34,077 nucleotides of DNA, taken from the NCBI GenBank assembly GCA_017535785.1, contig JAFXTN010000013.1, positions 1-34,077 of the forward strand, in the 5' to 3' direction. Position numbers and translations under genes: made by a program. The notes beneath the pieces were generated by a model. The model had not been told where the DNA came from and searched no databases. It worked only from the letters and a program-made list of their open reading frames with translations. This document shows positions 1 to 24,062 of the stretch, one piece after another. Each line of letters opens with the position of its first letter. The first letter of the stretch is position 1. Source of the DNA: Butyrivibrio sp. GTDB lineage: Bacteria > Bacillota > Clostridia > Lachnospirales > Lachnospiraceae.

Positions 1-296
1 GCCATTATATAGGCTTTGCCCAAAGTGGCAGTGCTTTTTTGAGCTAAGATACTGCTACTATTTTAAAATGATGAATAGTGGCAGTTGATTTTTAGCTACG
101 GATTCTGCCTCTATCAAGAAAGTGAAGATAGTAGCAGTATAATTGACTTTAAATAGACTGCTACTATTAGATAAAACAGGATAGTGGCAGAAGAACAGTC
201 TCCATTTAAACTGCCACTTGCAGGAAACATGCAAAAGTAGCAGAGAAGAACCTCAAAGTTGAACTGCTACTATGGCAAGAATAAGCATAGTGGCAG
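1..296. repeat. Phased array of alternating inverted 8-bp motifs, 53-bp period
   Basis: The motif AGTRGCAG starts at 24, 77, 130, 183, 236 and 289. Its reverse complement CTGCYACT starts at 52, 105 (variant CTGCCTCT), 158, 211 and 264. Start-to-start distances alternate exactly 28 and 25, so the period is 53 bp over five units. The first six bases of the window (GCCATT) match where the preceding CTGCCACT would fall, so the array probably extends left. No arm is found at the next expected place (317), so it ends at 296. Each CTGCYACT can pair with the following AGTRGCAG around a 17-nt A-rich loop, often extended inward by AT...AT. It can instead pair with the preceding arm around a 20-nt spacer. 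It is not a CRISPR, since neither the loop nor the spacer flanks a long invariant repeat. No ORF covers it. Function unknown. Confidence 0.85.
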
Positions 297-365
297 GACA
301 AAAGCCAACAGCAAGTTAATCAGAAGTTATTCGCATAAATTCAAGTTTATTGAGGTGGTAAGAAC

Positions 366-911
366 ATGAAAGATGAAAGAGTTTGGGGCGTGATTCGAAC
401 AGGAGATGCCTGCAGATACTATACTTTCTTCAAAGAAATATTCGAAACGATGGGTGATTTCCAGAACGAGTATAATTGGCTGATTACAGATATTGAAGGG
501 TACCCGGCAAATGATACCCGGTATGAATCATTTTATGAAGAGCATTCTTATTTGTGGCTTTCAGGAAAAGAGCTTTCAGACAACGTGTACAAACATGATT
601 ATCAATGGAATTGGGCGGTGTTATCAGGTTTTGAAAAAAGCGTAGAACTGGACGAAATTCTTAAAGAACCTTTACCATATGCAGATGGCTATACTGGCTT
701 TTGGAAGCCGGATCTTTCCATACAGCATCCTTTAGCAAAAGTAGAAATGGTAGCATGGGATAGCGGTGCCACTTTGTTATTTGCAAAAGAATACTCGTTG
801 TATTCTGGATTTATGGATAATATATCCGGTGTTGTGGATTTGAGTGAATACAATTCGGATGGCTATGATGAAAAAAGGTATTATCGATGGCTGGAAAAAA
901 ATAACCATTAA
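366..911 (+). CDS. Putative immunity-type protein, small cytosolic hypothetical
   Basis: A 181-residue soluble protein with no signal peptide or membrane segment. It is rich in Trp, Tyr, Asp and Glu, with stretches such as YNWLITDIEGYP and YQWNWAVLSGF that look like the core of an alpha/beta fold. An AGGTGG ribosome binding site lies 7 bases before the ATG. It is the first of several small, AT-rich, co-directional genes of unrelated sequence, an arrangement typical of immunity-gene banks linked to polymorphic or contact-dependent toxins. I do not recognise a named family with certainty; the immunity role rests on context and composition. It starts 70 bp after the repeat array. Confidence 0.5.
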   Translation: MKDERVWGVIRTGDACRYYTFFKEIFETMGDFQNEYNWLITDIEGYPANDTRYESFYEEHSYLWLSGKELSDNVYKHDYQWNWAVLSGFEKSVELDEILKEPLPYADGYTGFWKPDLSIQHPLAKVEMVAWDSGATLLFAKEYSLYSGFMDNISGVVDLSEYNSDGYDEKRYYRWLEKNNH

Positions 912-964
912 AGAAATCAGGTGTTTAGGCCATCTCTTTAAATTTCAATTTATAGGGGATTAAC

Positions 965-1186
965 ATGAAGCTAAAGTATAATATTTATGAGCATCTCGGG
1001 AATATTTCAGAATCAAATAATGGTTGGACTAAAGAATTAAATTATATAAGTTGGAATGAAAGAGAGCCTGTTTATGATATTCGAACATGGTCAGCGGACC
1101 ATACTGAATATGGAAAAGGGGTTACTATTACTTCAGGTGAGATGAAGAAACTTCAGGAATTGATAAAGGATAAAGTTGTATTTTGA
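965..1186 (+). CDS. PC4/YdbC-like single-stranded DNA-binding protein
   Basis: A 73-residue protein matching the pattern of the bacterial PC4/YdbC family: an N-terminal strand, then WTKELNYISWN, then YDIRTWSADHTEYGKGVTIT and a C-terminal helix. Family members are small dimeric single-stranded nucleic-acid-binding proteins, so a role in binding melted DNA or RNA is expected from the family. The length is normal for the domain. The ATG follows a purine-rich AGGGGAT. It sits 53 bp after the first immunity-like gene and 42 bp before the next, so it probably shares a transcript. Its presence inside an immunity-like cluster is unexplained. Confidence 0.75.
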   Translation: MKLKYNIYEHLGNISESNNGWTKELNYISWNEREPVYDIRTWSADHTEYGKGVTITSGEMKKLQELIKDKVVF

Positions 1187-1228
1187 TAATTTCACATTAG
1201 TTGAATCGATTATAAGGACGTAGCAGGT

Positions 1229-1615
1229 ATGAATGATATTTATAAGCAAAAGATGGAGAGGCTAAAAGAACAGGCACGAATAAAAGCTCAAAGACTTAGA
1301 TGGATGGAAAATGAATTGCTTCAAGAATGCTTATCAGCTCTAAATACCTACGTAATTGTTGATGATGAGAATTTGATGAATAAGGTTTTTGATATAGCTT
1401 CAAATAAAAAAGATGTAGAGATGCACTCACATAAGGATGAAGTTTTATTAGATGATGAGCAAAAATACTATATTGTTTGGGACGAATTGTCACTTCCACT
1501 TGTTTTATGTTTAGGAGAACGTATAAATAATTGCTGGGATGACGTTATGGCTGTATCATTTGATACTTATTTTGTAAACGAATCTATGACTGAAGCAATC
1601 GGAGTAAGAAATTAA
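1229..1615 (+). CDS. Putative immunity protein (contact-dependent inhibition type)
   Basis: A 128-residue soluble protein. The N-terminal 30 residues are a basic, helical stretch. The C-terminal half carries LPLVLCLGERINNC followed by DDVMAVSFDTYFVN, a pattern I associate with small CdiI-like immunity proteins found beside nuclease toxins. No toxin gene is present in the window, so a cognate partner cannot be named. A weak AAGGA ribosome binding site precedes the ATG. The next gene begins within 25 bp. The immunity assignment is tentative; a plain hypothetical protein is the fallback. Confidence 0.5.
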   Translation: MNDIYKQKMERLKEQARIKAQRLRWMENELLQECLSALNTYVIVDDENLMNKVFDIASNKKDVEMHSHKDEVLLDDEQKYYIVWDELSLPLVLCLGERINNCWDDVMAVSFDTYFVNESMTEAIGVRN

Positions 1616-1638
1616 AAACAAGTTTGTAGGTGACAAGT

Positions 1639-2130
1639 ATGGAAGACAGTTGGAGAGAGACTCTTAAGAAAAGACCTGTCAGAACGTGGAGCAGAGTTGA
1701 AATTGAAGAAATTATAAAAGAAAGGCACATTGATAGAACTAGATTTGGAGAGTATTCAAAGTCTGCGTATCAAACGGTGATTAATAGATTCTATTATGCG
1801 TTTACTGATCATGATTCCAATTCTACAGTAAGAGTTCAAGGCACATGGAATAAGATAAGAAATAGTTTGAGTAAAGTAGAATTTGTATCTGAGGATTTAG
1901 GATGGAATGAAATGCTGGCTTCAATGAAAGCAAGTGTATTAACATACTGTGATACAAAATGCTTTTTGCTTTTAGATGATGGCTGGCTATACGAGGGATA
2001 TATAGATGAAATCATTGAGGTATTGAGAGAAATTGATGGTTTCATAGATGCTTTTTATATTTTTACAAACCATTATGACGTGCTGTTTTCTTATTCGGGG
2101 GATTCACGTGGATACGTGCTTTATAGGTAG
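1639..2130 (+). CDS. Putative immunity-like hypothetical protein
   Basis: A 163-residue protein starting at ATG 1639; the GTG at 1630 overlaps the ribosome binding site region TAGGTGAC, so the ATG is preferred. The N-terminal half is polar and helical. The C-terminal half (CFLLLDDGWLYEGYIDEII, then DAFYIFTNHYDVLFSY and GYVLYR at the end) resembles the alternating strand pattern of small cytosolic immunity or SUKH-like proteins, but no family is certain. It lies 23 bp downstream of the previous gene, with matching AT-rich composition. Same transcript is likely. Confidence 0.45.
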   Translation: MEDSWRETLKKRPVRTWSRVEIEEIIKERHIDRTRFGEYSKSAYQTVINRFYYAFTDHDSNSTVRVQGTWNKIRNSLSKVEFVSEDLGWNEMLASMKASVLTYCDTKCFLLLDDGWLYEGYIDEIIEVLREIDGFIDAFYIFTNHYDVLFSYSGDSRGYVLYR

Positions 2131-2180
2131 ATATATCAAAAAATTTCAATTTTGAAAAGGCAAAGATCTATGGTATTAGA

Positions 2181-2345
2181 ATGCTTTATAAAGGCTTCAT
2201 CAGATGTTCAGGCTGTAGATACATTGAGGAGCTGGCTGACGGATATCGAACAAATACAATATTCTGAAATAGTAGCAGAGGCATAATAGATATTACTTCT
2301 GGTGAAGTCAGAGAACTGGACAGAAAGTTAACTGAGTTTTATTAA
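2181..2345 (+). pseudogene. Broken small gene with one in-frame stop
   Basis: Reading from ATG 2181, a 54-codon frame is interrupted only by TGA at 2265-2267 and then continues to TAA 2343-2345. The conceptual product begins MLYKGFIRCSGCRYIEELAD and, after the stop, ends in an ITSGEVRELDRKL stretch. That end loosely resembles the C-terminus of the PC4/YdbC-like gene at 965-1186 (ITSGEMKKLQELI). No good ribosome binding site precedes it. It looks like the decayed remnant of another small gene of this cluster. The reading is by eye and the family is unassigned. Confidence 0.45.
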
Positions 2346-2376
2346 ATACAAATCGGGATATGTAGGGGAATGACAA

Positions 2377-3318
2377 ATGATTGAACTTGAAAAAGAACAC
2401 TTGGAAGAATTGAATCATTGGCGAAAAGTTGCATTGGAAAAGACACACGAGGAAAATCGTGAGTATCACAGGATTTTAATATTTGGCTGGCATGTGGGTC
2501 ATTATCCGGAAAAAGAAGTGTTGTTGGATAAATTGAAAGCTGCGACTAAGGAAAAAGATTATGCGCTGATGCAGCAAATCTTTTTTACATATCATAAAAG
2601 GGAGTTATCATGGAATTTTTCAAGTGGTTATGATCACTGTTATTTGGTGTACAGAGTAATTCCATATCTATGCTGCGCAGATTATGATGAGATATACAGG
2701 GCTTTCCCTAAGGAACTTAGATTGTCTGATAATGGGCATTCTATGCTGGTTAATGCGACAGCTCTTTTGCAATGTATTATGTATAAGGGTAAGTATGACG
2801 AACAAAAGGTTATTGCTAAAGCTGAGAAGTATGTGGCATCTAAACAACCAATATGGTATAGAGCCTATGTGGCTTGCTTTTTATCAATTCTAAAGGAAGA
2901 TGCCGAAATGCTTTCGGAAAAGCTGCAGGTCTTATGTGATTACCACTCTCGCCAGGATATATTAGGATTTATGAAGCTTCATTGTCAGTATGCCTATGGC
3001 ATTCTTGTATTTGCAAAGCATAATTTGTCAGAGGAGTGTTTTAAAAAGATTAAATTACCGAAGCATAAGACTTTTGATCCCGGATATATGGAGTGGGTAT
3101 TTGCAGGACAGTTTGTGAGAAAAAGTATCTATGATTACAAAGCTCCGTTTGAAGAATTAAATCTCGTGTATAAGATGCCGCTCCCAACGACTGTTCTGCA
3201 TCAACCGTACTTAAATGACGATCGTGTACAAGTCAGTCCGCAGGCAAAGAAGGCTTATCATATGGATGGAAAAACGATGGATGCACAGGTTTTGGATTAT
3301 GTTATTGCGAGAATCTGA
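2377..3318 (+). CDS. Imm49-like alpha-helical immunity protein
   Basis: A 313-residue, all-helical soluble protein. Features that recall the Imm49 family are the overall length, a central run of helices with paired aromatic residues (KQPIWYRAYVACFLSILKED, roughly residues 150-170) and a C-terminal extended segment. Imm49-like proteins are immunity factors encoded beside polymorphic toxins. An AGGGG ribosome binding site lies about 8 bases before the ATG. It is the last gene of the AT-rich cluster and is followed by a strong intrinsic terminator. Family assignment is from memory of the general pattern and is moderate. Confidence 0.5.
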   Translation: MIELEKEHLEELNHWRKVALEKTHEENREYHRILIFGWHVGHYPEKEVLLDKLKAATKEKDYALMQQIFFTYHKRELSWNFSSGYDHCYLVYRVIPYLCCADYDEIYRAFPKELRLSDNGHSMLVNATALLQCIMYKGKYDEQKVIAKAEKYVASKQPIWYRAYVACFLSILKEDAEMLSEKLQVLCDYHSRQDILGFMKLHCQYAYGILVFAKHNLSEECFKKIKLPKHKTFDPGYMEWVFAGQFVRKSIYDYKAPFEELNLVYKMPLPTTVLHQPYLNDDRVQVSPQAKKAYHMDGKTMDAQVLDYVIARI

Positions 3319-23616: not shown

Positions 23617-23982
23617 ATGGAAAAGAGAGAACTTACATGTATAGGCTGCCCCATGGGCTGCATGCTTACAGCCATCATCGAGAACGGCGAAGTCACATTT
23701 GTTGAGGGCAACACTTGCCCAAAGGGCGACATCTACGCTCGAAAAGAAGTGGTAAATCCCACAAGGATCGTCACCAGCACAATGTGCGTAGTCGGCGGCG
23801 AAAAGGAGCGCGTCTCTGTTAAGACCGCCTCCGACATCCCCAAGGACAAGATCTTTGACGTAATGCGCGACATCGACGCTGCAAGCGTCAGCGCGCCTGT
23901 CAGCATCGGCGACGTAGTCCTTGCCGATGTCGCAGGCACCGGCGTTGACGTCGTTGCCACTAGGAACATACACTGCCGCTAA
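23617..23982 (+). CDS. DUF1667 protein of the glycerol-3-phosphate module
   Basis: A 121-residue protein; ATG 23617 has AGGAGG at 23603-23608 with an 8-base spacer, so the GTG at 23599 is rejected. Cys8, Cys11 and Cys15 (CIGCPMGC) with the Cys in EGNTCPKGD make a likely Fe-S site. DUF1667 genes commonly follow this pair of FAD oxidoreductases, so it is probably the small electron-transfer subunit. Its last codons (CAC TGC CGC) form the 5' arm of the hairpin repeat that follows. Confidence 0.8.
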   Translation: MEKRELTCIGCPMGCMLTAIIENGEVTFVEGNTCPKGDIYARKEVVNPTRIVTSTMCVVGGEKERVSVKTASDIPKDKIFDVMRDIDAASVSAPVSIGDVVLADVAGTGVDVVATRNIHCR

Positions 23983-24062
23983 TTGAGAAAACGCGAATGG
24001 CGGCAGTGCAAATTAAGGGCGGACCCCTGCCGCGAAACGGCAAAACGCGGATGGCGGCAGGG
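23971..24062. repeat. Two tandem hairpin repeats with covarying arms, 54-bp period
   Basis: Hairpin one: CACTGCCGC (23971-23979) with GCGGCAGTG (24000-24008). Hairpin two: CCCTGCCGC (24025-24033) with GCGGCAGGG (24054-24062). Arms repeat at 54 bp. The base that differs between hairpins changes on both arms, keeping the pairing. Loops share AAAACGCGRATG. There is no T tract, so these are not standard terminators. Layout matches the 1-296 array and the element at 25774-25841. The rest of the gap to 24161 contains the promoter candidate listed separately. Confidence 0.8.

Follow-up and report, generated by a model that had tools for sequence, protein, structure and literature searches.

The 34,077-nt stretch of Butyrivibrio sp. 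DNA analysed here (the window) opens with a phased, non-coding array of short inverted arms, a single member of an intergenic repeat family dispersed in Butyrivibrio. The typical element of this family consists of two half-arrays of an asymmetric 53/54-bp unit, mutually inverted and abutting in phase. The arms change more slowly than the sequence around them, the spacers are nearly constant in length, whole units are gained or lost, and near-identical copies are found at dispersed places with changed flanks. By a modest preponderance, we read the array as a dispersed, non-coding modular element of BIME/BOX-like kind, whose arms would be sites of a putative factor and whose copies would be non-autonomous and seats of recombination.

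The array of the window comprises eleven arms between positions 24 and 296, which follow one another in steps of 28 or 25 bp in strict alternation (period 53; Table 1). Ten of the arms are exact to AGTRGCAG or its complement, and the remaining one, although in phase, is imperfect. The exact 8-mer occurs 13 times in the window, whereas 100 dinucleotide shuffles contain on average 1.58 (maximum 6; 0/100 reach 13). Both the positions and the shuffles thus bear out the eleven phased arms described in the initial annotation; its count of two 8-mers elsewhere (2271 and 13529) has to be raised to three, with 12005 added. As the initial annotation had held, the layout is not that of a CRISPR: in the window's array the arms of 8-10 nt alone recur, and loops vary as do spacers. 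A decayed coding repeat, which would have spoken against the proposal, was not found, since the 53-bp period shifts the reading frame with every unit; a single frame of at least 40 aa overlaps positions 1-300, and it is 58 aa long (open ends counted).

Table 1. Coordinates of the repeat elements in the window
Feature	Positions	Strand	Remarks
Left continuation, part of a further imperfect hairpin	1..23	.	Identical to the corresponding stretch of C28:1-85, reverse-complemented; X503 element extends leftwards
Arm 1, AGTGGCAG	24..31	+	
Arm 2, + strand reads CTGCTACT	52..59	-	
Arm 3, AGTGGCAG	77..84	+	
Arm 4, imperfect, + strand CTGCCTCT, in phase	105..112	-	
Arm 5, AGTAGCAG	130..137	+	
Arm 6, + strand CTGCTACT	158..165	-	
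Arm 7, AGTGGCAG	183..190	+	
Arm 8, + strand CTGCCACT	211..218	-	
Arm 9, AGTAGCAG	236..243	+	
Arm 10, + strand CTGCTACT	264..271	-	
Arm 11, AGTGGCAG	289..296	+	
First half-array: spacers 32-51 and 85-104, polarity of TTGATTTT-like block +	32..104	+	Window pattern ++---
Second half-array: spacers 138-157, 191-210 and 244-263, polarity -	138..263	-	Window pattern ++---
Right tail of element	297..339	.	Common to C27, C5 and X503 up to ~339, then three different genes
Further copy, degenerate, of two hairpins with arms CTGCCGC; lies between two ORFs	23973..24060	-	Two-unit model R2, E 2.5e-6

The sequence was extended leftwards within its own genome (G000). Contig C28:1-85, when reverse-complemented, is identical to positions 1-85 of the window, and C28 is therefore likely the left neighbour of the window. 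The first 154 bp of another contig, C5, match window positions 195-348 at 98%; there are three differences in 145 shared bases, beyond which C5 enters another gene, so that the right part of the array is apparently present twice in the genome. Contigs C27, C28 and C5 of this assembly all start inside the element. In Butyrivibrio sp. X503 (G024), the closest relative met in the analysis, the array is unbroken, with 12 arms in phase and an almost identical sequence; a second G000 array, on contig C2, is likewise present in X503. As can be seen from the C28 match and from the 12-arm copy, the array passes the window edge.

Three phased arms of the first flavour were used as an exact pattern to scan 84,980 species genomes. 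The search retrieved nine stretches; two contigs of a single assembly bear the label Eubacterium and the others Butyrivibrio, and there was no match in viral contigs; among 41 relatives (own genome counted), four carried the pattern. Arrays at a locus with a gene starting MIGL (see below) revealed a second arm flavour, CTGCCTATAT/ATATAGGCAG, beside CTGCYACTAT/ATAGTRGCAG. A two-unit covariance model was built from 20 typed stretches, with E up to 1e-3 counted as a match. In searches run with stricter filters, which lose weak matches, this model detected the family in 33 of 61 Butyrivibrio genomes (own included), often at several loci each, and in 24 of the 35 good-quality genomes of the genus. 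Elsewhere in the bacterial family it matched 5 of 199 genomes, in each case weakly (E 1.5e-5 to 9.1e-4). The phasing, which the initial annotation proposed to seek in relatives, persists in X503, and several relatives preserve it at a different locus. We recognised no account of such Butyrivibrio arrays in the open-licence PMC literature, a coverage that leaves subscription papers outside.

A parser that admits spacers of 18-22 nt and loops of 12-15 nt, and would miss larger departures, resolved 28 array regions into 26 arrays with 306 arms; L053 and L159 were dropped, as they contain no chain of five arms. In the 26 arrays the spacer between 10-nt arms is 20 nt long in 114 of 131 cases, 19 nt in 16 (14 of them from two RUI397 arrays) and 21 nt in one, and loops of 13, 14 and 15 nt were counted 77, 59 and 13 times. 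The oriented spacer is close to TTGATTTT beside the arm, where the orientation rule itself favours T. When polarity was scored by the TTGATTTT-like block in 24 arrays (L028 and L029 being left out besides L053 and L159), exactly one switch, from + to -, was observed in 22, the exceptions being L021, which is cut by a contig end and has no switch, and L051, which has two. The total of 24 switches compares to 52.9 (sd 4.3) in 5000 shuffles, none of which was as low.

In a second set of loci, partly overlapping the first, all chains with both signs start + and end -. Chains of one sign also occur in this set, for example at L086, L183, L184 and X503 L174-L177. The X503 arrays are nearly homogeneous 54-bp tandem arrays with family arms, another spacer sequence and no mirror, and the sign of their polarity therefore means little; their spacer identity is 0.89-0.97, versus an average of 0.30 in the window's array. 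The four are on contigs C12 and C1, and two of them sit at contig ends. The RUI397 arrays with a 54-bp period carry open frames (L028 5910-6491, - strand, 193 aa; L029 42-398, - strand, 118 aa) that cross most of the array, as expected of an in-frame repeat without stops.

The unit is made up of a 10-bp arm, a loop of 13-15 nt, an inverted arm and a 20-nt spacer with the TTGATTTT-like block (53 or 54 bp in all), and a typical element is a few modules in one direction followed by a few in the other, in exact phase. In the explanation that we prefer, the arms would be recognition sites of a putative sequence-specific DNA-binding factor, which would tolerate both the CTGCYACTAT and the CTGCCTATAT flavours and may need the 20-nt spacing. 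Copies would spread as non-autonomous elements and may act as seats of recombination, shuffling neighbouring genes. MIGL, a protein with a nuclease-like region whose gene is sometimes the next one after an array, is a candidate for the factor and no more.

The flanks of the arrays were compared among copies. Genome G012 contains, at different loci, three copies that are 96-97% identical over 411-446 bp, and in another subfamily copies from G012 and G070 agree at the left end but are flanked differently. When the ends of the G012 and G070 copies were read by eye, neither a target-site duplication nor a terminal inverted repeat was apparent; ends are common to the copies of one subfamily and differ between subfamilies. 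G000 and X503 carry different genes to the left and to the right of the window's array, and become alike again at a greater distance; the gene that follows the array on the right is a different one in the window, in C5 and in X503. Another locus varies too: in G070 the gene to the left of the array is a different one and the gene to the right is almost wholly absent, and in G058 a stretch is missing relative to G012 that ends inside the array. Breakpoints occur at arrays, which may or may not be their cause. A role in cassette recombination, as suggested in the initial annotation, is possible, given that the genes bordering arrays do change; recombination occurring passively among the copies accounts for this equally.

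At L143, L148 and L154, two arrays lying 3-7 kb apart enclose genes that are cassette-like by reading and whose content differs among G012, G067 and G070. An autonomous element between paired arrays was considered for four loci in these genomes and rejected: the enclosed genes are, by reading, ordinary cassette-like ones, with no shared transposase. A junction sequence, GTTAATCGCAYAAATTCAAGTTT, is located at window 326-348, C5:132-154, G024:C12:32717 and C13:312647, at the borders of the gene exchange between G000 and X503. With up to three mismatches it is found twice each in G000 and G024 and is absent from G023 and G014. An integron was likewise discarded: flanking genes turn over at this shared junction, yet the junction is rare and none of the five matches to the integron integrase TIGR02249 in G000 (90.8% complete) was over the cut-off. 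A second motif of the integron hunt has one match in the window (0.58 expected), two in L005 (0.34 expected; 9/200 shuffles reach this number) and one in L148 (0.41 expected), and a third has one match in the window versus 0.01 expected.

At one locus the array lies between a gene for a 23S rRNA methylase (RlmD-like, by reading) and the gene starting MIGL. In X503 and G023 the arrays at this locus have the same arms and phase, and their loops and spacers are without evident likeness. In seven genomes (L064-L067 and L069-L071) an array lies upstream of a gene closely related to MIGL; five of the seven (G023, G012, G070, G078 and G024) also show the methylase, 72-100% identical, which is not in view in G008 or in G000 (contig ends). 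L068 shows a single hairpin followed by the contig end, and no array was seen at the MIGL relatives in L072 and L073. At five more distant loci (L077, L078, L083, L084 and L090), the methylase (75-88% identical) and MIGL are kept without an array of at least four arms. These five loci speak against regarding the array as a permanent component of the locus. The array L150 of G070 was rejected as a rearranged form of this locus, its methylase being a 31%-identical paralogue.

The family might also be a purely selfish miniature transposon without a host role, whose arms are sites of a transposase that was lost or acts in trans. We regard this as a tentative alternative, with distinctly less than an even chance; it overlaps the explanation given above, and the odds of the two are not exclusive. 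The near-identical dispersed copies with differing flanks agree with it, as do the mirror halves, which resemble two abutting transposon ends, and the five loci that keep the flanking genes without the array. Against it, seven genomes keep phase and arms upstream of one gene though some loops and spacers differ, which suggests upkeep, and the four two-array loci yielded no autonomous copy with a shared transposase. The RAYT transposase (Y1_Tnp, PF01797) was matched in 14 of 16 genomes searched, in 13 of them over the cut-off; it was missing from G000 (90.8% complete) and G024 (99%) alone, both of which are rich in array matches. Mobilisation by RAYT is thus not supported for these two genomes, where the gene could have been lost after the spread of the family.

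Constraint on the parts of the element was estimated from 13 comparisons of orthologous or paralogous arrays. Since sequences are shared among the comparisons, which are not independent, and since arms were called by consensus resemblance, which biases their apparent conservation upwards, the following figures are indicative: substitutions were counted at 21/1224 sites in arm cores (1.7%), 49/1237 in spacers (4.0%), 67/1031 in loops (6.5%) and 91/985 in sequence outside the arrays (9.2%), i.e., loops changed nearly four times as fast as arms. Among three related arrays, one is longer by two 53-bp units, and few single-base indels were seen within arrays.

The two arms of a hairpin do not follow each other. 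Flavours are concordant within hairpins in 78 of 149 cases, versus 78.2 expected when arms are shuffled within arrays, and across spacers in 72 of 131, versus 73.0 in within-array shuffles. Arms within hairpins form 8.03 Watson-Crick pairs out of 10, compared to 7.98 (sd 0.05) by chance, and a fifth-base test of first-flavour arms was null (Fisher p 0.76 and 0.15). Because partner arms do not covary within arrays, the arms look individually recognised, and we favour, from these comparisons of sequence, candidate DNA sites over obligate hairpins. Of the two arrangements offered in the initial annotation, the chain of interchangeable hairpins is thus not borne out, as within arrays an arm pairs with either neighbour no better than chance, and an extended set of putative protein sites fits best. 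Covariation pooled over lineages exceeds shuffles in both pairing registers, about equally (0.202 and 0.197). Arms drawn towards a single consensus in each array would produce such a pattern; a structural role of the arms is nevertheless possible.

Such a role could be that of a structured RNA, a transcribed row of 33-nt hairpins that stabilises, terminates or attenuates neighbouring transcripts, which we consider unlikely. It would account for the pooled covariation, for the 86.8% of arm cells that are able to pair and for the folding of window positions 1-360, which is better than in 100 shuffles (z -5.56), as inverted arms would in any case produce. Crude ORF calls around 49 arrays gave 26 co-directional, 13 convergent and 7 divergent settings and three without assignment, so that 39 of 46 assigned settings might suit an RNA; the ORFs behind several of the divergent calls are short and doubtful, and we claim no orientation preference. 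These observations are opposed by partner arms that do not covary within arrays and by alternative pairings that score equally. Moreover, 34 of 149 hairpins pair one arm of each main flavour, as do all five units of the G000 C22 array, the fixed length belongs to the spacer and not to the loop, and Rfam 15 gave no match over any gathering score in window 1-3000 or in five loci. Long-range pairing between spacers of the two halves showed no clear antidiagonal excess, as judged by eye.

A sharper form of the preferred explanation would make the family a novel class of intergenic element, with a mirror-symmetric ladder of 10-bp sites at a fixed 20-bp spacing on which a genus-specific protein, possibly MIGL, would assemble into a regular complex that drives gene gain and loss at the edges; it seems to us quite doubtful. 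When 253 flanking ORFs were clustered, MIGL and the 23S rRNA methylase-like gene were present at five loci each and a tyrosine recombinase (by reading) at four. Of 30 MIGL loci fetched, 14 have an array within ~1.5 kb, which in 13 cases is on the 5' side; one presumably orthologous gene accounts for seven of the 14, and L080-L082 look like a second. The parser found no array in 150 resampled sequences, which controls for chance chains and not for adjacency. Conversely, MIGL is found at 5 of the 44 array loci examined (one of which, L187, has no array by the parser), and it is at most an occasional array neighbour.

The MIGL family (267 aa; L052 10777-11580, with homologues in L064-L093) has several matches in many Butyrivibrio genomes and no match in Pfam. 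It has a region with conserved RSKSE, PDFT and E-YWEH residues, which we take to be a PD-(D/E)XK-like nuclease domain. This region is 31-47% identical to stretches of plasmid genes in 10 records, mostly annotated as AAA family ATPases or helicases; no MIGL relatives were confirmed in viral contigs.

After the window's array lie immunity-like or unknown genes (1229-1615 and 1630-2130), with matches to CdiI_ImmP (PF24172, E 6.1e-10) and DUF6756 (PF20541, E 5e-11). It is very improbable, in our estimate, that the array is a site-specific recombination or regulatory site serving these genes. It does precede them, and the gene directly to its right is the one that differs between the window, C5 and X503. 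However, the family adjoins many unrelated genes elsewhere, in X503 this array borders directly on another gene, and the genome has no integron integrase at the cut-off. The special tie to immunity-like genes that had been suspected is not upheld, and it looks incidental. Least credible of all is a satellite grown by tandem duplication with the phase as a mere relic, which suits the nearly homogeneous tandem arrays (X503 L174-L177, L028 and L029) but not the arms and spacing kept where loops and spacers have diverged, nor the slow change of arms relative to loops.

The element was compared with known kinds of repeats. In PMC2817692, BIMEs are described as regularly spaced REPs in alternating orientation, and binding of IHF, gyrase and DNA polymerase I to those of E. 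coli is reported. REPs, as described in PMC3733652, are palindromes of 20-40 bp with a GTAG or CGTC tag outside the pairing and are often linked to RAYTs. The Butyrivibrio arrays are similar to BIMEs, so described, in being intergenic (between crude ORF calls) and dispersed, with regularly spaced motifs in alternating orientation. They differ by having no GTAG or CGTC tag outside the stem, GTAG being present only inside some first-flavour (CTGCYACTAT) arms, and by their variable loops and spacers, nearly invariant 20-nt spacing and mirror halves.

BOX elements of Streptococcus (boxA, tandem boxB, boxC) are presented in PMC3049150 as modular elements that have inner modules in tandem and, in some large copies, open frames running through them. 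They share with the Butyrivibrio element a variable number of tandem inner modules and the open frames in long copies; in the latter, however, inner modules mostly share the arms and the spacer block only and take two opposite orientations per element. Like MITEs, the Butyrivibrio element is short, non-coding, dispersed and imperfectly palindromic as a whole; no cognate transposase was found for it, and at the ends read by eye no terminal inverted repeat or target duplication was obvious. We therefore file the family as a dispersed intergenic repeat, BIME/BOX-like and not REP, the latter because the tag test failed, as did the RAYT test in two genomes.

Few lineages are known to carry repeat families of the BIME or BOX type. 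The Butyrivibrio family keeps arms and spacing while most of the intervening sequence is free to change, and since several species allow it to be followed at a single locus, the constraint is open to direct reading. Its arrays also mark places of gene-content change in Butyrivibrio genomes.
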